Positions 2,571 through 38,013 of a DNA stretch of 38,013 nt are shown here, one piece after another. Every line of letters starts with the position of its first letter. The first letter of the stretch is position 1. A model generated the notes under the pieces. It was not told the origin of the DNA. It did not search any database and saw only the letters and a list, made by a program, of their open reading frames with translations. Both the position numbers and the translations under genes were made by a program. Origin of the DNA: a virus. The stretch is taken from the IMG/VR virus record IMGVR_UViG_3300020596_000062, positions 1-38,013 of that record, one strand, 5' to 3'.

Positions 2571-2897
2571 ATGAAAACTCCATTACCTCCCGACGTGCTT
2601 GCCGACGCACTTCAAGCCCGCGTGCATCTCACCAGCGGTCGATTACTGGCATCCAAATCCATTAACCCGACAGGACAAACACAAATGAAAAAACCAATCT
2701 CAGAGTTGAAACGCTTAATTACTAATGATGAATTACTAAATGCTATGATTGTTGGGGGCATAGACTTTTCCACCTACGATCTTCCTTTCCAAACCAGACA
2801 GGATTTTTCTCGGTTGGCGCAACGGCTCGAAGCGTGTGGCGAGTTACTTGCTGAACTGGTGGATGAGCTGATGCAACCTGAGGTCACAAATGAATAG
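2571..2897 (+). CDS. Hypothetical helical protein
   Basis: The protein has 108 residues from the ATG at 2571, immediately after the preceding stop. An alternative ATG at 2685, behind the sequence AGGAC, would give 70 residues starting MKKPISELKR. The C-terminal half is helical and acidic (LAQRLEACGELLAELVDELMQ). No domain was recognised. It overlaps the next gene by eight bases. Confidence 0.6.
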   Translation: MKTPLPPDVLADALQARVHLTSGRLLASKSINPTGQTQMKKPISELKRLITNDELLNAMIVGGIDFSTYDLPFQTRQDFSRLAQRLEACGELLAELVDELMQPEVTNE

Positions 2898-3114
2898 CCA
2901 CCCATTATTACACCTACGCGCGCTTGTGGATGCGTTCTTTGGGAACACAGCTCAGACGGCGCTTTGGCTGCGAACACCGAACCCCCATTTTGGCGGGTTG
3001 TCTCCCAATGCCTTAATTTTGAGCGGGCGCACACATGTCGTCATTTCTTTTATGAACGCGTCTTTGGATCAAGGTGGCCCGCAATGGCGCAAGCGGGAAA
3101 AACTAGCCAACTAG
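2890..3114 (+). CDS. DUF2384 (MbcA/ParS/Xre antitoxin C-domain)-like protein
   Basis: This 74-residue protein contains the order A-x-x-WLRTPNPHFGG-x-SPNALI-x-SGR-x(4)-V, about residues 23-52. This is the hallmark of the DUF2384 or 'antitoxin Xre/MbcA/ParS toxin-binding' domain. There is no separate helix-turn-helix domain and no RES-type toxin gene next to it, so the domain stands alone, as in many phages. It might bind and neutralise a host toxin, or have another protein-binding role; both are inference. It is the last gene before the large terminase promoter region. Confidence 0.7.
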   Translation: MNSHPLLHLRALVDAFFGNTAQTALWLRTPNPHFGGLSPNALILSGRTHVVISFMNASLDQGGPQWRKREKLAN

Positions 3115-3121
3115 AGTAATA

Positions 3122-3138
3122 TGTAAATTAATGTTACA
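3122..3138 (+). promoter_or_regulatory. 17-bp palindromic element upstream of the large terminase
   Basis: TGTAAATTAATGTTACA is a perfect five-base-arm palindrome (TGTAA/TTACA, seven-base spacer). It ends 11 bases before the TTG start of the terminase and is followed by AT, giving a TACAAT that could serve as a -10 hexamer. Confidence 0.65.
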
Positions 3139-3149
3139 ATCAGCTTGTT

Positions 3150-4634
3150 TTGACCAAGAAATCCGGTGCAGACAAGCAAGTGCGAGACGCGCTGTGGAAA
3201 CGCGGCGACTTGCGTTGGAAGCTAGATGTGAATCAGCTGGAAATCTACAATACCACTCTAGCCAGTCTGAGAAAGCGGTGGGTGTGGAACTGTAGCAGAC
3301 GCATGGGTAAGTCGTACCTGCTATGTGTTATCGCTTGTGAAGTGGCGATCAAGAACCCGGGGTCACGCGTTAATTATGCAGCCCCCACGGCGACAATGGC
3401 CAAAGAGCTTTTGGCCGACCTGATGGAAGCAATCATCGACGATGCGCCGCCCGAATGTAAGCCTAAGTTTGACACGCGCACAGGTCATTGGCAGTTCCCA
3501 AACAAGGCCACCATCGTGATGAAAGGCTGCGAAGACAAAAAAAAGGCTAATCGCTTGCGCGGGCCAGCGGCGATCATGAACATCGTGGACGAGGCCGGCT
3601 TCATACCTGTGCTACATTACGTGTTGGGTTCGGTTTTGAATCCGCAGTTGCTGACAACGGGCGGGCGCACAATTATTGCGTCCACTCCCCCCATGTCGCT
3701 AGCGCACGATTTTAAAACACTGGCCGACTCTGCAATTGCGTCAGGCACCTACATTACACGCACGCTGTATGACAACCCGCGACTAACCAAAGATGCCGTC
3801 GAGGCGTACATCGCTGACGATGCGTCGATGTACAATTTATTGCCGGAACAGTTCATCCAAACCACGACATTCCGACGGGAATTTTTGGCCGAATTTTGCC
3901 AAGACGAACACCGCAGCGTAATCCCCGAGTGGTTGAAATACGGGCACGCCGCAATCAAAGAAGTTTCCGCCGGTCGGTTCTCCCAGCTTTATGTCGGAAT
4001 GGACTTCGGTATGCGCGACGGTGACGCTGCTGTGTTTGCCCACTACGACGCCCAGAACGGGCACGTATGCGTCGAGGGTGAGCTACATTTACGCGGCCAG
4101 ACCACGGGCACGTTTGCGTCACAAATAAAATCGACCGAATTCGAAATCTGGAAGAGTCGCTCGGTGCACCGACGCGTGGGTGACGCGGCCAACCCCAAAG
4201 ATATTCTAAACCTCACGGCCGAGTACGGTGTCGCGGTTACTCCTACGCGCAAAGATGACAAGCGGACACAGGTGAACCGCGTACGCCAACTGCTCACTCA
4301 AGGATTTCTGTTTATCCACCCGCGCTGCAAGCTGTTGTTGAACCAAATGCGTGACACCGTCTGGAAAGAAGACTTCACGACGTACGAACGGGACAAACAC
4401 GGCCACGGCGATTTGCTGGATGCGCTGGTTTATCTATGTAGGAATATTGACTACACCGCGCGCCAGGTTCCCGCGGAATTCTACAAAAGCGACACCGGTG
4501 AAATGGTTAAGTTGAATTCTGCTAACCAGGTGCGTTTGGACGCGGCACCCAATATGTCCAAAAGCGTTACTGAAATCGCACGGGCCTTTGGCGTCGACGC
4601 CGCCAAAAAGAAGAAGCCACTATCCTACATGTAA
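3150..4634 (+). CDS. terL: Large terminase subunit (packaging ATPase and nuclease)
   Basis: This 494-residue protein powers DNA translocation into the prohead and cuts the concatemer. It has a variant Walker A SRRMGKS (about 49-55) and a Walker B IMNIVDEAG (about 142-150, with D147 and E148). A coupling motif STP lies near 179. The RNase H-like nuclease begins at YVGMDFGMRDGD (about 281-292, D285 catalytic), and a second acidic cluster HGDLLDAL is near 420. The start is TTG at 3150, giving MTKKSG; no stronger start or ribosome-binding site lies nearby. The leader is unusually short, and a palindromic element sits just upstream. The stop codon lies inside the next copy of that element. Confidence 0.95.
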   Translation: MTKKSGADKQVRDALWKRGDLRWKLDVNQLEIYNTTLASLRKRWVWNCSRRMGKSYLLCVIACEVAIKNPGSRVNYAAPTATMAKELLADLMEAIIDDAPPECKPKFDTRTGHWQFPNKATIVMKGCEDKKKANRLRGPAAIMNIVDEAGFIPVLHYVLGSVLNPQLLTTGGRTIIASTPPMSLAHDFKTLADSAIASGTYITRTLYDNPRLTKDAVEAYIADDASMYNLLPEQFIQTTTFRREFLAEFCQDEHRSVIPEWLKYGHAAIKEVSAGRFSQLYVGMDFGMRDGDAAVFAHYDAQNGHVCVEGELHLRGQTTGTFASQIKSTEFEIWKSRSVHRRVGDAANPKDILNLTAEYGVAVTPTRKDDKRTQVNRVRQLLTQGFLFIHPRCKLLLNQMRDTVWKEDFTTYERDKHGHGDLLDALVYLCRNIDYTARQVPAEFYKSDTGEMVKLNSANQVRLDAAPNMSKSVTEIARAFGVDAAKKKKPLSYM

Positions 4635-4646
4635 AATAACATTACA
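4630..4646 (+). promoter_or_regulatory. 17-bp palindromic element at the end of terL
   Basis: TGTAAAATAACATTACA overlaps the terL stop (4632-4634) and precedes the ATG at 4665 by 18 bases. It differs by one base from the copy before the portal gene. Confidence 0.65.
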
Positions 4647-4664
4647 TTCATGTACACTGAGTGA

Positions 4665-4973
4665 ATGAATTACAACGGAATGACGTACAGCGCGGCGCGC
4701 CGAATGTTGGCCAATTCGATGGGCGCGGCATACAGCCTTAGGCGACTGCCGAAAAACCTCGGTTTCATCGTTACGCACGCGGGTTCTGAATACTGCCGGG
4801 GTTCAACGATGTCCGAAGCCATCTACATTGCCAACGCGGGAATGGCACGCCAGCTACGCACCAAACTACAGGAAATTAAAGCCGCCGCCGAAGCCGAAGA
4901 AATCCGGTTGACGGAAGAAGAAACTAAAGCGCTGAACGAAACCGACAAAGAATTGGCCGAGCGTTCGGAATGA
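4665..4973 (+). CDS. Hypothetical protein with a C-terminal coiled coil
   Basis: This 102-residue protein has a basic N-terminal domain (AARRMLANSMGAAYSLRRL) and an acidic heptad-like C-terminus (LQEIKAAAEAEEIRLTEEE). It overlaps the next gene by ATGA. Its own palindromic element places it under the same control as the packaging and virion genes. No family was recognised; a small virion or packaging accessory protein is possible. Confidence 0.65.
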   Translation: MNYNGMTYSAARRMLANSMGAAYSLRRLPKNLGFIVTHAGSEYCRGSTMSEAIYIANAGMARQLRTKLQEIKAAAEAEEIRLTEEETKALNETDKELAERSE

Positions 4974-6065: not shown

Positions 6066-6098
6066 CGTTTGGAGACTACTGGGGGACCGGGGGAAATT

Positions 6099-7163
6099 TT
6101 GGCCAAGAAATCGGTTAAACACGGAACAAAAGCGTGGATCGGCGGATACGTTTACGCCGGGATTTTCTACATCCGCAAACAGGTAAGCGGCCGACGTTAT
6201 GACTTTAGTACCGGCGCACGTACATTGGCCGAAGCCCAAAACCATTGGGTAGCCTTCCAGCAAAAGACGGGATTGGTTGAAACTCCAACACTTCCCCCAC
6301 CGCCGACGGAAGGTCCCCCAGTTGTCCCCCACTCAACAGTTCCACCCGTGGTCCAAGGGCGCAAGGTCGTCATGACGTACGAGCTAATTGACGCCTTTCT
6401 GCGGTACAGCACGACAGACAAACAAAACTGCGATGAGTGGCTGAAACGAAAACGGCGGGTACTGCTTTGGTGGTACGAACAACTGGCAAACCGCGATCTG
6501 CGGACACTTTCCTATCAGACCCAAATTCTGGCAGCCCTGAATAGCGTGGGTGGCCACATAAATCGGCTGAAAATCCTTTATGGCTTCTATAGCTATTTGG
6601 TGACCACAGAGATTCTAGGACCGGCCGAACACGTGATGGTTCGGAAGTTCAAGCAGCAAAAAGCCAAGCCGGAACAATGGCGGAAAACCAAAGCACTAAG
6701 CGCCGAAGAGTTTAAGAAGGTCCGGTCGGGGTTGGCGAGACATTGGCGGGATGCTTTTGACGTTCAGATGGCCACCGGCTGGCATCGAACCGAGTTGGAG
6801 CGTTTTGTGCGCGGGGGCGCGGTGCACGGCAACAGCACAATTGAATGCCCACAAGCGAAGTCCGGAGAGCCGCTGATCCGTCCGGTATCCAAGGGCGTGT
6901 GGGAAGCGGCAAAGCGATTGGTCGAACGGGGCACGCTAAGCAAAAAAAGGTACTACCTCAGTGTGAAGGAAGCCGCCAAAGCGGCGGGAGTTCCATGGTT
7001 TTCACCTGGGTATGCACGCCACACGTTTGCGTCCCGGGCCGTGCACGACTTTGGAGTCGACCCCAAGGATGTTTCGGAATGGCTTGGACATAAGTCGCCA
7101 GACACAGTCAAGCGCTTCTACATTCAATTTAAGGTACCCAAAAAGATGAAAACGCTGATCTAG
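6099..7163 (+). CDS. int: Tyrosine recombinase (phage integrase)
   Basis: The enzyme catalyses site-specific recombination between attP and a host attB, here probably a tRNA-Gly gene. The 354-residue form starts at TTG 6099 behind GGGGGA, giving MAKKSVKHG; a TTG at 6069 would add ten residues. An N-terminal arm-binding domain is followed by a proline-rich linker near 64-86, then core-binding and catalytic domains. Visible catalytic residues are R in GWHRTEL (about 230), K in QAKSGE (about 254), R in YARHTF (about 307), H in WLGHKS (about 331) and the nucleophile Y in RFYIQF (about 341). The usual first His of HxxR is replaced by Gly. The gene directly follows attP, as in many temperate phages. 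Confidence 0.93.
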   Translation: MAKKSVKHGTKAWIGGYVYAGIFYIRKQVSGRRYDFSTGARTLAEAQNHWVAFQQKTGLVETPTLPPPPTEGPPVVPHSTVPPVVQGRKVVMTYELIDAFLRYSTTDKQNCDEWLKRKRRVLLWWYEQLANRDLRTLSYQTQILAALNSVGGHINRLKILYGFYSYLVTTEILGPAEHVMVRKFKQQKAKPEQWRKTKALSAEEFKKVRSGLARHWRDAFDVQMATGWHRTELERFVRGGAVHGNSTIECPQAKSGEPLIRPVSKGVWEAAKRLVERGTLSKKRYYLSVKEAAKAAGVPWFSPGYARHTFASRAVHDFGVDPKDVSEWLGHKSPDTVKRFYIQFKVPKKMKTLI

Positions 7164-9323: not shown

Positions 9324-10301
9324 ATGTCTGACGTTGCCGCCCCCGCCGTTTCCGCCACTCCCTCGCCCGCGCCGAAAGTTGCGCAAACGGTTGAGAATAA
9401 CCGACCCGAAAACGCGCATCATAAACCGGCGTACCGCGCGGAACCACCCGCCGATAAAAAGACGCCCGCGCAGCCGACCACGAGCGAACCGGTCAAGGGT
9501 GAACCGGTAAAACTCTGGAAGCTACGCGACGGCGACAAAGAGCTGACGTTGGACTCTGAAGACAAACTCACCGCGTACGCCCAAAAAGGGTACGGGTTGG
9601 ACAAGAAAGTCTCAGAGTTGAGCCGTACGGTTCGTGAAAAAGAGGAATTGTTGCGATTGGCCGAATCCGACCCCGATGCTTTTTTCCAGAAGATGGGTAA
9701 GGACCCGCGCAAGCTTTATGAGGAGCGTTTACTTCGCCAGCTCGACGAAGAGGAGAACAGGGCGAAGCTTTCGCCCCAAGAAGTGCGTTGGCGCAAAGAG
9801 GTCGAGGCGCAAAGCCAAGCTGCACAGCAGGCGCAGCAAGAATTAGAGCATTACCGCCAGATTGAACACAAGCGGAACGTCGATCACAAAATCAGCGAAA
9901 TCGACGACGGCATTATGAAGGCGCTGACCAGCCCAAATATCAACCTGCCCAAAACGGAGAGAACTGTTGCCCGCATGGCCGAATTAATGTTGGAAGCGGA
10001 CGCCAACAATCTGGACATCTCACCCGACCAAGTTGCAACGTTTGTGTCCCAAGAAATGGAAACTGAGGTTCTGGAATTGTTCGGTCACATGAGCGGCGAA
10101 CAATTGCTGACTAAAATGCCCCAAGAAATCATCCAGAAAATTCGCCAAGCGGATTTGGCCAGATTCCGGGCACAGCGTGCTCCCGGAAACCCCGAGGATG
10201 TACGGGCGGTTCAGCAACGCCCCGCGGCAGACCAACCACAAAAGAAGAAGTTTTTATCCAAACTAGAATGGGAACGCCAACTCGAATCTCGGATGAAATA
10301 A
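9324..10301 (+). CDS. Scaffolding protein
   Basis: This 325-residue protein lies between the portal and capsid genes, the classic scaffold position. It has an Ala/Pro-rich disordered N-terminus (about 1-60), a short globular segment (VKLWKLRDGDKELTLDSEDK), and long charged coiled-coil helices (about 90-210). The C-terminus is highly basic (PQKKKFLSKLEWERQLESRMK); basic helical C-termini of scaffolds bind the coat protein. A ribosome-binding site (GGAG) precedes the ATG. Its TAA runs straight into a copy of the dispersed TCGACCGGA motif. Confidence 0.8.
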   Translation: MSDVAAPAVSATPSPAPKVAQTVENNRPENAHHKPAYRAEPPADKKTPAQPTTSEPVKGEPVKLWKLRDGDKELTLDSEDKLTAYAQKGYGLDKKVSELSRTVREKEELLRLAESDPDAFFQKMGKDPRKLYEERLLRQLDEEENRAKLSPQEVRWRKEVEAQSQAAQQAQQELEHYRQIEHKRNVDHKISEIDDGIMKALTSPNINLPKTERTVARMAELMLEADANNLDISPDQVATFVSQEMETEVLELFGHMSGEQLLTKMPQEIIQKIRQADLARFRAQRAPGNPEDVRAVQQRPAADQPQKKKFLSKLEWERQLESRMK

Positions 10302-10318
10302 TTTTCTCGACCGGAACC

Positions 10319-10350
10319 AAACAGTAAGCTGTCTTTACAATTTACTGTTT
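10319..10350 (+). promoter_or_regulatory. Hairpin plus degenerate TGTAA-N7-TTACA element upstream of the capsid leader
   Basis: AAACAGTAA (10319-10327) pairs with TTACTGTTT (10342-10350). Inside it, AGTAA-N7-TTACA (10323-10339) matches the 17-bp element class except for its first base, and it continues as TTACAAT. It may be a weak terminator for the scaffold gene, a capsid-gene promoter element, or both. Confidence 0.4.
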
Positions 10351-24687: not shown

Positions 24688-25005
24688 TTAGCGGGCGATA
24701 ACGACTGCAGAGGCACCCGCGGCGATGCACACCACGGCAACCAACGCCATGGTCAAAAATGATGGGCCGGATGGCGTCGCTGCAATGACATCCAAGCTAG
24801 ACTTTAAGGACTTGTTTTCCGCCTCGAGGGACGTAATTCGTTTGGCGTGTGTCAAAGCCGCTTCGTCGTTTAGGTAAAGCCCAGGTCCGACGTAAACGAT
24901 TTCACCCTGGACCATTAATGCCGCTTTGTCCGCCGTGATGATTTGCTCTTCCGCCATTCCGGTCGAAGAAAATATTAAACCGATCATTAATAATGCGCGG
25001 TTCAT
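24688..25005 (-). CDS. Spanin-like lysis protein with signal peptide and C-terminal membrane segment
   Basis: This 105-residue protein has an N-terminal signal peptide (MNRALLMIGLIFSSTGMA, cleavage about 18), a periplasmic part with a short coiled coil (ITSLEAENKSLKSSLDV), and a C-terminal hydrophobic segment (FLTMALVAVVCIAAGASAVVIA). With endolysin and holin just upstream in the same operon, a role in outer-membrane disruption is likely. The topology is not the textbook Rz arrangement. The start overlaps the stop of the 29-residue gene before it (ATGA). One strong dispersed motif (24958-24966) lies in the signal-peptide region. Confidence 0.6.
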   Translation of the reverse strand: MNRALLMIGLIFSSTGMAEEQIITADKAALMVQGEIVYVGPGLYLNDEAALTHAKRITSLEAENKSLKSSLDVIAATPSGPSFLTMALVAVVCIAAGASAVVIAR

Positions 25006-33296: not shown

Positions 33297-33494
33297 ATGC
33301 CCGTGCCCAAGCTGGATCCAAAACAAAAAGGCAGTAGTTTCAACGTCGTCGTCAGATTCCCAAACTCGACAATCAAGCAAATCAGGAGAACCGCAAAGGC
33401 TTACGGGTACGCCAGTGTGTCCGAGTACATCCGGGAGGCTGCCGCCGCATTCCCCGTGCTTATGGATGAGGCAGTGGAGAGAGGTGACAAGTGA
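33297..33494 (+). CDS. Ribbon-helix-helix DNA-binding protein (Arc/CopG-like)
   Basis: The protein has 65 residues from the ATG behind AAGAGG. The sequence GSSFNVVVRFPNSTIKQIRR then TAKAYGYASVSEYIREAAAA is a beta strand followed by two helices, the MetJ/Arc fold that binds operators as a dimer of dimers. As the first gene rightward from a divergent control region, it is a likely autorepressor or early switch protein. The next gene starts at a GTG overlapping its stop. It is a candidate binder for one of the palindromes described here. Confidence 0.8.
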   Translation: MPVPKLDPKQKGSSFNVVVRFPNSTIKQIRRTAKAYGYASVSEYIREAAAAFPVLMDEAVERGDK

Positions 33495-35779
33495 GTACCT
33501 CCCAACGCGTTGATACTGAGCGGCTCATGGCCGATGCGGGGCAAGAAGGCTTTGTGAAGTTCCTGGACAAGGAAGGGATTGCGTTTTCTCGTGCGGGGGA
33601 AACATTGCGTTTGGATTGCCCCACCACCGCGTGCAAACACAAAGATCCTGGCGACGAGGATGCGGCTGTGTTCTACGGCGACCAACATGGTTGGAAGTGG
33701 AAATGTCACAGCTGTAGCACGTACGGATCGCTGCTCGATTTGGTCCAGACGGTTAAACGAATAGATTTCAAGCCTGCGCTTGCTTACGTAGAAGAGTTGC
33801 TGGGCATTTCCGCAAAACCGGCAGCTCCTGGCATGGGCAAAGTACGTAAGCTGATTACGCCCGATGCCGAGAAGATTTGGGAACAGCTCAATCCAACCGG
33901 AACGCCCGCGGCTATGGACTATCTGGCGGGGCGCAATTTACGGGGCGCTGCGACCGAGGAAATGTCTTTAATTCGTTTCGCCCCTGGCACGTGCCAGAAT
34001 GACTTTGTTAAATTCATCAGCACGACGCATCCTGTTGCGGTGCCGTTGTCTGATGTGAACGGCGACATCCAATCCATCGTGTTTCGCGCCATTACAAAAG
34101 TTGAGGGGGCCACCAAACTCAACCTTAAGCATTGCCCAACAAAGGGGGTCTTCTTCGGTGAGCCGTGGCGTCTAGATGAATGCAACACCGTTGCTGTCGC
34201 CGAGGGTATGGCTGACACGCTTGCGCTACAGCTGTGGGCGCCGAAGGATGTCTGTGTTGTAGGCGCACCCGGAAAGGATTGTTTAGTTGCCCTAGCAGAG
34301 GTCCTGTCGGGTAATGATATTGATGTGGCGGGCAAGTTTTTCATGTTGTTCCCTCAGAATGACAGACCCAAGAACGCGAGCCGCAAAGAGTTTCTTAAGC
34401 TCGCGGCGTTATTGCGAGCGCGTGGAGCAAAGGCGCGTGTTGTCGCTACACCGGGGCAGTTTGAAGATGTTGCTGCCTGGCGCAATGATGAGAGGGATGC
34501 AGCGTGGCCGGAAGCGGAACGCCGAGAACCCGAAAGCACTTCGAGCAGCAAGACAATCAGAATGGACGCCCCCGAAGAAATTGAGTGGGGCGCTAATTTA
34601 CAATCATTGGTTAGAGCATTTCGCGATCCGGAAATGCGCAAGCTTATACTGCAGCAGTCCGAGCACCTTCGCTTTAACGCATTGAGCTTGGATGTTGTTT
34701 TGAAGAATGGTCCGCTGACAGATTGGGACATCACGCCGATTCGATACCAGCTCGAGATCCATATTCCCTCAGCCCGTAAGGTGAGGTTCTCCAAGGATGA
34801 TGTCGGTGACGCGCTGATGGCCGTGGCCCGCGAAAATATCTTTAACCCCATCCAAGACTATTTGAATGGGCTGCAATGGGATGGCGTTTCTCGACTAGGT
34901 CCGGTCGGAGTTATCAATAAGGTTCTGGGGCGTGACGGAACCGAGCTTGAAACTGCTTTCATTCGTAAGTTCATGGTGGCCGCGGTTGCGCGTGCCATGG
35001 CACCTGGCTGCAAGTTTGACAGCACGCTGATTATGACCGGCCCCGGCGAATCTTATAAGAGCACGTTTTGTAGAGTGCTGGCCGGTGACGATTACTTCCG
35101 CGATTCCCACATTGACATTAACACCAAGGATGGATTGACCGCCCTCAAGGGCAATTGGATTATCGAGTGGTCCGAGCTGACAGCGGTCAAGCGCGCGAAG
35201 GACCAAGACACCATTAAATCGTACTTGTCCGCCACGGTTGACAAATACAGACCCCCGTATGGCAGGACAGACATTTCGGTGCCCCGCGCATGTGTAATTG
35301 TGGGAACCACTAATGACTCGGAGTTTTTGAGTGATCCCACAGGCAACAGACGCTACTGGCCGCTAACCCTCAAGGGGAATATCGACATCGCGTGGGTTGT
35401 AGCGAACCGAGACCAGTTATGGGCAGAGGCGGTTTCTATTTTCAAAACGTGGTTGGCGGGGCGCCCCATCAGCCACTGTTATGTACAGAATGACCCAACC
35501 AAGCCGTGGTTGCTCACCAAGACCGAGCAGCAGCTACAGGCGCCCGAGGCCAGGAAGTACGAACTGTCGGACGAATGGGAAGACGAAGTACGTGGGCGTG
35601 TCGCTAAGTTACCACGTGGCTTTTCCATCCGAGAGGTTTTGGTGGACATAGGCAAACAAGAAGGCCACATCACCCGCGCAGATGAAATGCGTATGGGCAA
35701 GGTCCTGAGGACTCTGCGGTTTACCAAACGCCAGGATGGTCATGGCCGTAATCGCTGGTTTCCATTAGACGCTGCCTAG
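33491..35779 (+). CDS. Primase-helicase (zinc finger, TOPRIM-like, VapE/VirE-type ATPase)
   Basis: The 762-residue protein starts with a CHC2-like zinc finger (LDCPTTAC around 41-48, WKCHSC around 70-75). A TOPRIM-like segment (TVAVAEGMADTLALQLW, near 230) follows. The C-terminal ATPase has Walker A GPGESYKST (about 517-525), Walker B-like NWIIEWSEL (about 555-563), then IKSYLSATVDKYRPPYGRT and VIVGTTNDSEFLSDPTGNRR. The last is the hallmark of the virulence-associated E family. It probably makes primers and unwinds DNA at the phage origin, with the family A polymerase. It starts at GTG 33491, coupled to the ribbon-helix-helix gene. Confidence 0.9.
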   Translation: MSTSQRVDTERLMADAGQEGFVKFLDKEGIAFSRAGETLRLDCPTTACKHKDPGDEDAAVFYGDQHGWKWKCHSCSTYGSLLDLVQTVKRIDFKPALAYVEELLGISAKPAAPGMGKVRKLITPDAEKIWEQLNPTGTPAAMDYLAGRNLRGAATEEMSLIRFAPGTCQNDFVKFISTTHPVAVPLSDVNGDIQSIVFRAITKVEGATKLNLKHCPTKGVFFGEPWRLDECNTVAVAEGMADTLALQLWAPKDVCVVGAPGKDCLVALAEVLSGNDIDVAGKFFMLFPQNDRPKNASRKEFLKLAALLRARGAKARVVATPGQFEDVAAWRNDERDAAWPEAERREPESTSSSKTIRMDAPEEIEWGANLQSLVRAFRDPEMRKLILQQSEHLRFNALSLDVVLKNGPLTDWDITPIRYQLEIHIPSARKVRFSKDDVGDALMAVARENIFNPIQDYLNGLQWDGVSRLGPVGVINKVLGRDGTELETAFIRKFMVAAVARAMAPGCKFDSTLIMTGPGESYKSTFCRVLAGDDYFRDSHIDINTKDGLTALKGNWIIEWSELTAVKRAKDQDTIKSYLSATVDKYRPPYGRTDISVPRACVIVGTTNDSEFLSDPTGNRRYWPLTLKGNIDIAWVVANRDQLWAEAVSIFKTWLAGRPISHCYVQNDPTKPWLLTKTEQQLQAPEARKYELSDEWEDEVRGRVAKLPRGFSIREVLVDIGKQEGHITRADEMRMGKVLRTLRFTKRQDGHGRNRWFPLDAA

Positions 35780-35821: not shown

Positions 35822-35851
35822 TTGACGGAATGTATTACACGCCTCTATGTT
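35822..35851 (+). promoter_or_regulatory. Possible promoter of the HTH-receiver gene
   Basis: TTGACG (35822-35827) and TATGTT (35846-35851) are 18 bases apart. The predicted start near 35858 would favour the ATG at 35862 with little or no leader. Confidence 0.4.
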
Positions 35852-35861
35852 TGAGGCGCTC

Positions 35862-36455
35862 ATGCAAGGAACTAAGAAGACCGCAGACGATGCACTTCCC
35901 AAGGTTGGAGAATATTACTCCACTATTGAGATCGGGAAGATGTTGGATGTCACACCATCTACGGTGTGGCGTTGGATTAAGCAGGGCAGACTGAACGCGT
36001 ACAACACGCCAGGCGGACACAGACGAGTCCCCATCGCGGATCTACGCGAGTTCATAATCAAGAACGACATTCCCGTACCCACGATGCTGAGCTCGGCGGT
36101 CATCAAGTTATTGGTGATTGACGACCATGCAAAGGTCCTGTCGAGTCTTGATAAAGAAATCAAATCCGCGAAGGCCCCAATTGAGCTGATTGTGACCACA
36201 TCGGGCATTGATGCGATCATGATGATGGACAAGGAGAAGCCAGACGCCGCGCTGATTGATTTGAACATGCGCGAGGTTGATGGGCTGGCATTGGTTCGCA
36301 GGTTGGCCCAGAAGTACGCTGGCGGCCCGCTGAGGGTACTTACGATGACTGACTCGCTGACGGCCAAGGCCACAACAGAATCCGCCAAGGCGGGTGCAAT
36401 GGGGTGTCTGAAGAAACCCATCAAAGCGGCCATGCTGATGAAGCTGTTGAAGTAG
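35862..36455 (+). CDS. Excisionase-type HTH fused to a response-regulator receiver domain
   Basis: The protein has 197 residues from the ATG at 35862, behind GAGG; ATG at 35847 is possible. The N-terminal domain (about 18-66) reads EYYSTIEIGKMLDVTPSTVW then RWIKQGRLNAYNTPGGHRRV, a MerR/excisionase-type winged helix-turn-helix. The C-terminal half is a CheY-like receiver with all key residues: LLVIDDH (D87, D88), ALIDLNM (phospho-acceptor D133), VLTMT (switch Thr about 161-163) and CLKKPI (K185). It could be a phosphorylation-controlled excisionase or a lysis-lysogeny regulator that senses host kinases or acetyl phosphate; this is inference. No kinase gene is present in the phage. Confidence 0.88.
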   Translation: MQGTKKTADDALPKVGEYYSTIEIGKMLDVTPSTVWRWIKQGRLNAYNTPGGHRRVPIADLREFIIKNDIPVPTMLSSAVIKLLVIDDHAKVLSSLDKEIKSAKAPIELIVTTSGIDAIMMMDKEKPDAALIDLNMREVDGLALVRRLAQKYAGGPLRVLTMTDSLTAKATTESAKAGAMGCLKKPIKAAMLMKLLK

Positions 36456-36571
36456 CGTTACCTGGGAGGGGTGCGCTGCTGGGGCGGCGGAACGAACTGG
36501 CCAAGTCCGGTCGAAGAATATTATGTGCGAGGCTCGAGTCGGATCTATACGCACACAACCCAGGGATACCC

Positions 36572-36738: not shown

Positions 36739-36922
36739 CAGTACAGCAGCACATGCACTGAGCCAGGGTTAGGAAACAGGGGTCTAGATATCAGGTGTTA
36801 TTTGGCCCCAGTAATTCCAGGCACTTGGGTCCAAAAATACAGGTGACCTCAGAATGGGGTGTTTTTAGCCACCAATCGCTCAGGTAGGATCACCCGCGAA
36901 AGGTAGGACACCAGTCCACATC

Positions 36923-37054
36923 CAGTCTCGTTTGTGAGACGGGTGATTATCGACCCGCGTAAATGTTTACGCACCTGGACCGACTGCGTAAATGTTTACG
37001 CACCTGGAAACCGGCCGCACACCAAAAACAAACAGTCTCGTTTGTGAGACGGGT
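36923..37054. repeat. A-B-B-A array of paired palindromic repeats
   Basis: Repeat A (CAGTCTCGTTTG then TGAGACGGGT, 22 bp) is at 36923-36944 and 37033-37054; each can form a GTCTC/GAGAC hairpin. Repeat B (GCGTAAATGTTTACGC then ACCTGGA, 23 bp) is at 36957-36979 and 36986-37008, spaced 29 bp start to start. Its palindrome GCGTAAA/TTTACGC is perfect. The two types of dimer-binding site suggest initiator or repressor binding. Confidence 0.85.
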
Positions 37055-37193
37055 CATCAGCACCCCGCGCATAATATTTACCTCGACCGGAACCACAGCA
37101 GTTCCCGCGACTTACTGTACTGGACTGGCAATTGTACCGTAACTCGTCCACGAACACTACCAGTGGTATGTGGGCAAGCGCCCTACCCCGACA

Positions 37194-37271: not shown

Positions 37272-37333
37272 GGAATAAGTCAACGTTTCTTTACATACCT
37301 GCGGAATAAGTCAACGTTTCTTTACATACCTGC
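37272..37333 (+). repeat. Perfect 31-bp tandem duplication
   Basis: Units 37272-37302 and 37303-37333 are identical, running from GGAATAAGTCAACG to TTTACATACCTGC, with no spacer. They may be protein-binding iterons or a recent slippage duplication. Confidence 0.9.
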
Positions 37334-37340
37334 CCCCATG

Positions 37341-37367
37341 TGTATAGTTTTACTGGTTTTCTATACA
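37341..37367. promoter_or_regulatory. Inverted repeat TGTATAG/CTATACA
   Basis: TGTATAG (37341-37347) and CTATACA (37361-37367) flank a 13-base spacer directly upstream of the duplicated gene start. The right half includes TATACAAT, a possible -10. It is a likely operator or promoter for the gene at 37409. Confidence 0.5.
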
Positions 37368-37421
37368 ATACACCCCATGAATCCATCAGTTTCTATACAA
37401 TACACCCCATGAATCCATCAG
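37358..37421 (+). repeat. Perfect 32-bp tandem duplication spanning promoter and start codon
   Basis: Units 37358-37389 and 37390-37421 are identical. Each holds TATACAAT, a short CACCCC leader, and the first four codons ATGAATCCATCA. The upstream copy opens only an 11-codon frame ending at the TGA that overlaps the downstream ATG (CATGA), so it acts as a decoy or upstream frame. Confidence 0.9.
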
Positions 37422-37600
37422 ACTGGATTGAATTCAGCCCAGAAACGCTAATTCGGACCACGAATAAAGCTTATTGCATCCGAATGCATGGATTGCCTGT
37501 CTGGGTCCCTAAGTCGGCCACACGGTGGCCTCCCACGAAATTCGAAGATGGGGTCACGCTGGTGGTCGTAAAGCGCTGGTGGGCCGCCAAGGCGCTGTAA
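37409..37600 (+). CDS. Small phage protein (WVPKS-type)
   Basis: The protein has 63 residues from the ATG in the second 32-bp unit. The pattern LIRTTNKAYCIRMHG then LPVWVPKSATRWP resembles a family of small phage proteins of unknown function with a central W-x-PKS turn. A C-terminal beta strand and a Trp pair (LVVVKRWWAAKAL) follow. It is the first gene after the control region, in an operon that continues across the junction to rusA. Confidence 0.7.
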   Translation: MNPSDWIEFSPETLIRTTNKAYCIRMHGLPVWVPKSATRWPPTKFEDGVTLVVVKRWWAAKAL

Positions 37601-37886: not shown

Positions 37887-38013
37887 GCCGTCGACCCCCC
37901 GTATGGTATAAGATGGGCTAATGCTAATGCGCCCCACCCTTGTCTGCCGGTCATTACCGCCTCCTCGGCGGTCACATGTACAAAGTCGTAGTCAAAGGTA
38001 AGCCAGTCGCTAA
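37887..38013. repeat. Right copy of the 127-bp terminal overlap
   Basis: It is identical to 1-127. The partial RusA reading frame starting at 37976 is the same gene as at 90, not a second gene. Confidence 0.95.

Follow-up and report, generated by a model that had tools for sequence, protein, structure and literature searches.

A phage regulator joining an excisionase-type helix-turn-helix to a potentially phosphorylatable receiver domain

The phage genome analysed here appears to encode a DNA-binding regulator in which a helix-turn-helix of the excisionase type is joined to a potentially phosphorylatable receiver domain, an assignment that is well founded in the domain matches and the predicted structure. 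Phages read the state of their hosts through SOS, quorum and peptide signals, and this phage may read the signalling state of its host through an excisionase-like head joined to a phosphorylation-sensing receiver. If this is true, a response-regulator output of the phage's own, with no sensor among the scanned genes, would amount to direct listening to host kinases or acetyl phosphate.

The window, that is, the whole stretch of DNA analysed (38,013 nucleotides, IMG/VR record IMGVR_UViG_3300020596_000062), has 127 identical bp at both ends (1-127 and 37887-38013), and because of this terminal repeat we regard the contig as a complete phage genome with a circular map of 37,886 bp. The phage genes identified are those for a terminase, head protease, portal, SU10-like capsid protein and DNA polymerase A, together with an Erf annealing protein, SSB, RusA and VapE. 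Just 5' of the terminase gene, a toxin-binding domain of the Xre/MbcA/ParS type (PF09722, E 1e-7) is found in a protein of 74 aa encoded at 2890-3114(+). Rfam and tRNA scans of the genome gave no matches. The regulator gene and its parts are as follows.

35862..36455, + strand: coding sequence of the HTH_17-receiver protein, 197 aa (open reading frame; SD-like GAGG; Pfam; model pLDDT 90)
35913..36062, + strand: winged helix-turn-helix of the HTH_17 / excisionase-BldC type, residues 18-67 (PF12728, TIGR01764, BldC structures)
36102..36452, + strand: receiver domain, residues 81-197, last helix short (PF00072, E 2e-18; Foldseek)
36258..36260, + strand: codon (GAT) of the phosphoacceptor D133 (alignment with CheY D57)

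The longest open reading frame of the regulator starts at 35847 and comprises 202 aa, the alternative ATG adding 5 aa. We prefer the start at 35862 because an SD-like GAGG lies five bases before this ATG; residues are numbered according to the 197-aa form, with 5 to be added for the 202-aa frame (D133 = D138). The coordinates and the D133 numbering given in an earlier interpretation of the letters alone (hereafter, the sequence-only reading) are thus right. Codon usage and GC3 of the gene match those of the other phage genes. The HTH_17 winged helix comes first and the receiver second, an order opposite to that of the OmpR and NarL proteins. The sequence-only reading had described precisely this join and had proposed structure prediction of both halves and HMM searches for the two families as checks, and both checks bear it out: Pfam HTH_17 and Response_reg each match above the curated cut-offs, and an AlphaFold2 model built with an alignment (A6, 35 rows, all from the window and viral-locus sequences) contains the winged helix and the receiver with a mean pLDDT of 90.4. 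This model supersedes a poor single-sequence fold (pLDDT 55). Chance as the source of the domain matches is rejected by Pfam scores above the curated cut-offs.

The head matches HTH_17 (PF12728) with E 1e-11 (45 bits vs a curated cut-off of 27) and the NCBIfam family TIGR01764, 'excise', with 36.1 bits (cut-off 28.8), so that its proposed assignment to the excisionase/MerR type holds; the score against NCBIfam HTH_BldC is 40.5 bits, under the cut-off of 77. In the model, the winged helix consists of a strand at 18-20, helices at 21-27 and 32-40, a wing at 54-57 and a helix at 58-67, and its closest solved relatives are the BldC-DNA complexes 6ama and 6amk (E 5e-7). Among the DNA-contacting residues of BldC are Trp31, Lys33, Thr27, the wing residues His46-Arg47-Arg48 and Arg30, the last of which reads the G in a YpG step (PMC5859096). 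In the alignment, R30, W31, K33, T27, H46, R47 and R48 of BldC correspond to R37, W38, K40, T34, H53, R54 and R55 of the phage protein, and BldC Lys26 and Thr29 are changed. BldC and RdfS are examples of this fold binding, as multimers, to repeats or AT-rich DNA (PMC5859096, PMC11963761). Of the BldC inter-subunit pair Arg22-Glu16, the Glu is kept as E23 and the Arg is replaced by Asp29; because of this replacement, head-to-tail assembly in the style of BldC is not assured for the phage regulator. Sequence and model together support the view that the head is probably a DNA-binding regulator of the excisionase/BldC/MerR type.

For the second half, the Response_reg (PF00072) match reaches 67 bits (E 2e-18; curated cut-off 30.2), the model shows five beta-alpha units at 81-196, and Foldseek matched hundreds of solved receivers, including CheY, NarL, Spo0A and 3cnb, with E of about 1e-8 to 1e-7; the third-ranked match, 3cnb, is the receiver domain of a merR-type response regulator from Colwellia. 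Alignment with CheY shows that the catalytic quintet is intact (D87, D88, D133, T163 and K185), in agreement with the initial claim that all phosphorylation residues are kept. A small residue at T+1, Pro at D+4, an aromatic residue at K-3 and a full last helix are common in receivers, although not defining, and the phage receiver has none of them. Its T+1 residue is D164, whereas the other receivers in the comparison have Ala, Gly, Ser, Thr or Val there; in the viral contigs, T+1 is Ala or Gly in 32 of 35 readable receivers and Asp in none (0/35), these receivers having been picked by the DLMMPxMDG pattern, which biases counts at D+2 and D+4 but not at T+1 and K-3. At D+4 the phage protein has R137 where the compared receivers have Pro and, once, Ala; the coupling aromatic (Tyr/Phe) at K-3 is replaced by C182; and only 13 residues, the Lys included, remain to the C-terminus, compared with 21 in CheY, so that the last helix ends early. 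The description of the receiver as complete accordingly stands for the quintet and the fold but not for T+1, D+4, K-3 and the last helix, and the expectation that it should be active is weakened by the Asp at T+1, the absent Pro and aromatic residue and the short helix.

These departures raise the possibility, in our view rather unlikely although far from negligible, that the receiver no longer signals by phosphorylation and serves instead as a dimerisation or protein-binding module, a pseudo-receiver in practice. According to a 2025 review, small T+1 residues open access to the phosphorylation site; Ala or Gly is found at T+1 in 74% of receivers and Tyr or Phe at K-3 in 86%, both being rarer in pseudo-receivers, which have gained acidic residues in these loops and lost the D+4 Pro (PMC12632262). 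The Asp at T+1, the loss of the D+4 Pro and the K-3 aromatic and the shortened helix all fit this pattern. Against it, all five catalytic residues are retained, where drift should have removed some, and the K-3 change alone means little because most bacterial HTH_17-receiver relatives are likewise without the aromatic residue. By the definition of the same review (PMC12632262), the phage domain is, judged by its residues, a receiver rather than a pseudo-receiver. Its phosphorylation seems plausible but, given D164, R137, C182 and the short last helix, may be slow or uncoupled.

No histidine kinase was found among the ORFs scanned in the complete genome, which implies that any phosphodonor would come from the host, as had been proposed. 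Orphan response regulators exist, and a missing cognate kinase is not disqualifying.

The position of the gene suggests what the regulator might control. The elements concerned are the following.

33297..33494, + strand: 65-aa ribbon-helix-helix-like protein, first gene of the operon (RHH_1, E 0.027; PHROG 'transcriptional repressor', E 0.053)
33491..35779, + strand: VapE-like primase/helicase gene, directly upstream of the regulator (PF05272, E 3e-68)
36918..37069, no strand: paired near-palindromes, repeat families D1 and D4 (exact copies)
37272..37421, no strand: exact tandem repeats, 31 bp x2 (37272-37333) and 32 bp x2 (37358-37421) (repeat analysis)

The regulator is the last gene of a rightward operon, after the ribbon-helix-helix-like gene and VapE, and lies 82 bp behind the VapE gene on the same strand; the genes from 21.7 to 33.2 kb are all leftward. 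The RHH_1 and PHROG matches of the 65-aa protein are below curated or usual thresholds, and the strand-helix-helix pattern is our interpretation of its sequence, which makes it a candidate Arc-type repressor. The sequence-only reading had spoken of a phage with an integrase but no recognisable CI repressor; indeed, no CI-like protein is found among the ORFs scanned, but this possible repressor at the head of the operon had gone uncounted.

Directly behind the regulator gene are about 950 bp without a convincing gene and rich in repeats, so the gene does lie beside a putative control region, as first described. Between 36456 and 37407 there are 63 repeated 12-mers, compared with 0.04 in shuffles, and chance as the source of these repeats is rejected. 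The near-palindrome GTCTCGTTTGTGAGAC has copies at 36925 and 37035; GCGTAAATGTTTACGC forms an exact pair at 36957-36972 and 36986-37001, 29 bp apart, which resembles LacI-family operators and is perhaps a site for a host protein. The region also includes a (TA)n tract and, between the 31-bp and 32-bp tandem repeats, a weak promoter-like match (37321-37348); promoter-like matches in the noncoding stretch are not above chance, and the array shows no enrichment of AATTnnnnC, the consensus of BldC (1.0 vs 3.0 per kb). Beyond it come a 63-aa ORF (37409-37600) and, across the junction, RusA and later the terminase; the array precedes the RusA and terminase genes because the genome is complete (circular).

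We favour, though tentatively, the reading that the regulator binds this adjacent control region and sets transcription, possibly gated by a host phosphodonor. Under this reading, a phage transcription factor of the response-regulator type, with reversed domain order, would be produced from the last gene of the rightward replication operon and would most likely bind the noncoding region directly downstream (36.46-37.42 kb). Once bound, it would set rightward transcription through the circular junction, into the small ORF, the RusA resolvase, the terminase and the head genes; the last place in an early-type operon, just before the next block, would be the position of a switch to the next transcription phase. 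Phosphorylation of D133 by a host kinase or acetyl phosphate would then cause the receiver to alter DNA binding or assembly on the repeated sites. Of this scheme, the two folds, the five catalytic residues, the place of the gene and the non-random repeats are observed; we infer which DNA is bound, in which direction transcription is changed, and that the receiver is phosphorylated and by what donor.

Alternatively, the noncoding repeats may function in an origin or for a different protein. If the repeat-rich, AT-containing region is an origin, the protein would be an origin-binding regulator working with VapE, which we consider improbable. The gene does lie directly behind that of the primase/helicase, and tandem direct repeats, the (TA)n tract and palindromes follow downstream, members of the BldC/HTH_17 family being able to bind direct repeats (PMC5859096). 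However, receivers are more typical of transcription control, and the GC skew shows no clear sign of an origin at the noncoding region. Also counting against this possibility, we know of no replication protein with the HTH_17-receiver architecture.

A second potential target is a motif dispersed over the genome, two of the four best copies of which fall in the noncoding stretch behind the regulator.

36494..36534, - strand: best-scoring motif copy, just behind the regulator gene (PWM score 32.2, top of 27)
37063..37103, + strand: fourth-best motif copy, inverted with respect to the copy at 36494 (PWM score 30.2; inverted repeat I2)

Other copies lie at 10287-10327(+) and 24946-24986(-). The motif is asymmetric, 20-22 bp long, with an AT-rich 5' side followed by YCGACCGGA (core TCGACCGGA). 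The pattern YCGAC[CTA]GGA[AC] has 31 matches in the genome, compared with 1.2 expected (at most 5 in 100 third-order Markov genomes), which rejects chance as its source; its density is 0.82 per kb in the phage, whereas 719 kb of other loci have 0.021 per kb. We consider it a DNA-level signal because its copies lie on either strand and fall into several codon phases. Noncoding DNA makes up 10.6% of the genome, and 5 of the 31 sites are intergenic; the remaining 26 are in genes, 14 in the same orientation as transcription of the gene and 12 in the opposite one. The motif is absent from 21 Chloroflexota genomes and yields no clue to the host.

A BldC-like head reads sites of this kind, with an AT-rich half and a YpG step, and a site composed of AT-rich DNA and YCGACCGGA suits such a head because of its YpG-reading Arg and the wing that reads the AT groove; from this we infer a possible link, the motif being a candidate target of the regulator. 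Under the most far-reaching version, the head would read all 31 copies, gated by phosphorylation, and set transcription or compaction throughout the phage genome. We regard this as a long shot; if true, host two-component signalling would set the transcription or compaction of the entire phage genome at once. The motif could also be an uptake-like, recombination or stoperator-like signal. Mycobacteriophage L5 has 24 asymmetric stoperators across its genome, compared with the 31 sites here, but the sites of L5 fall mainly between genes and in a single orientation with respect to transcription (PMC5712189), unlike the mostly intragenic phage motif of mixed orientation.

The family of the head invites a further explanation, the one preferred in the sequence-only reading, namely, that the protein is an excisionase (recombination directionality factor) or a lysogeny switch responding to host kinases or acetyl phosphate. 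The phage does carry a recombinase gene.

6069..7163, + strand: tyrosine recombinase (integrase-like), between the head protease and portal genes (PHROG integrase, E 1e-15)

Precedents for such a role exist: the excisionase RdfS doubles as a regulator (PMC11963761), and TorI ties an excisionase to TorR (PMC3509656). The same HTH family, however, holds many proteins that are not excisionases, such as BldC regulators and IS607 transposases, and on the sequence evidence nothing but this family would tie the regulator to the recombinase. The two genes are 7.5 kb apart on the circular map, in separate operons, the recombinase gene lying inside the head-gene cluster; no attP was identified in the phage genome. 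Tyrosine recombinases usually have the motifs TGLRxxEL and HxLRHTFA, and this one shows the atypical TGWHRTEL and SPGYARHTFAS at the catalytic motifs; it scores 26.5 bits against Pfam PF00589, just under the cut-off of 27.1, and has no relatives in INPHARED at E 1e-3. The excision half of the proposal is weakened by this distance, setting and sequence, and we consider the proposal as a whole, the lysogeny switch included, quite doubtful.

No close relatives of the regulator were found in the collections searched. Searches of INPHARED and IMG/VR, the latter with exact patterns that sample part of codon and sequence space, detected no full-length relative and, as far as the sequences can tell, no other phage HTH_17-receiver protein. 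A single-sequence search retrieved nothing from the viral contigs and one locus, HTH only, from bacterial genomes. Alignment A1 found two HTH-only proteins in the viral contigs and only ordinary receivers at the top in Chloroflexota genomes; in the viral contigs, receiver alignment A4 had no matches and A5 matched one hybrid kinase. The KTxGGHRR DNA pattern occurred in 23 stretches of the viral contigs, which encode BldC-like or IS607-type proteins or, in a few cases, unrelated frames, and none has a receiver; DLMMPxMDG occurred in 35 receiver-containing stretches, and no HTH_17 head precedes any of these receivers. Searches of the viral contigs with VapE and with the terminase of the phage also gave no relatives. 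A 98-kb IMG/VR contig (L035) encodes, at 3007-4920(+), a 637-aa hybrid histidine kinase with receivers at both ends; its 725-aa neighbour (822-2999) resembles a sugar-nucleotide dehydratase into which an intein-like sequence is inserted.

Compared with known systems, each half of the regulator is a known module, and the HTH_17-receiver join is, by sequence, one already known in bacteria. Plasmid proteins of Methylomagnum, Limnohabitans, Ideonella and Phaeobacter (L003-L006) align over the full length with 22-26% identity and share with the phage regulator the order of HTH before receiver, a length of about 200-215 aa, the GGHRR wing motif and the receiver quintet (readable in L003-L005). They differ in the recognition helix (TVQ or SVQ, compared with TVWRW in the phage), in the D+4 Pro that they retain and, in three of the four, in a GGLP stretch before the last strand; the phage protein lacks TVQ/SVQ and GGLP, which suggests a distant branch or an independent fusion. 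Together with 3cnb of Colwellia, which carries the annotation of a merR-family response regulator, these relatives show that the architecture, whose output domain the sequence-only reading set apart from the usual OmpR or NarL type, is not unique to this protein. Sensor-kinase genes adjoin two of the four, those of Methylomagnum and Ideonella. Given these neighbours and the lack of a kinase in the scanned phage ORFs, the protein might be directed at the host, reprogramming the cell by binding host promoters or by accepting phosphate from a kinase of the host; its gene sits, however, within the core phage operon, not a typical position for an accessory gene, and we consider this very unlikely.

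Among viruses, the two modules are familiar separately. Receivers in viral contigs and BFVD belong to CheY-like proteins, longer receiver-first regulators or kinase hybrids, none of them headed by HTH_17, and phage HTHs of the regulator's type are BldC-like or IS607-like. BldC resembles the phage regulator in HTH sequence and in most DNA-contact residues but has 68 aa and no receiver, compared with 197 aa and a receiver here. RdfS, which is paired with the integrase IntS, and Xis of phage Pukovnik have the HTH_17 fold of the phage regulator but are small and without a receiver (PMC11963761). TorI, an excisionase linked to the TorR response regulator (PMC3509656), binds a response regulator, whereas the phage protein appears to be of the response-regulator type itself.
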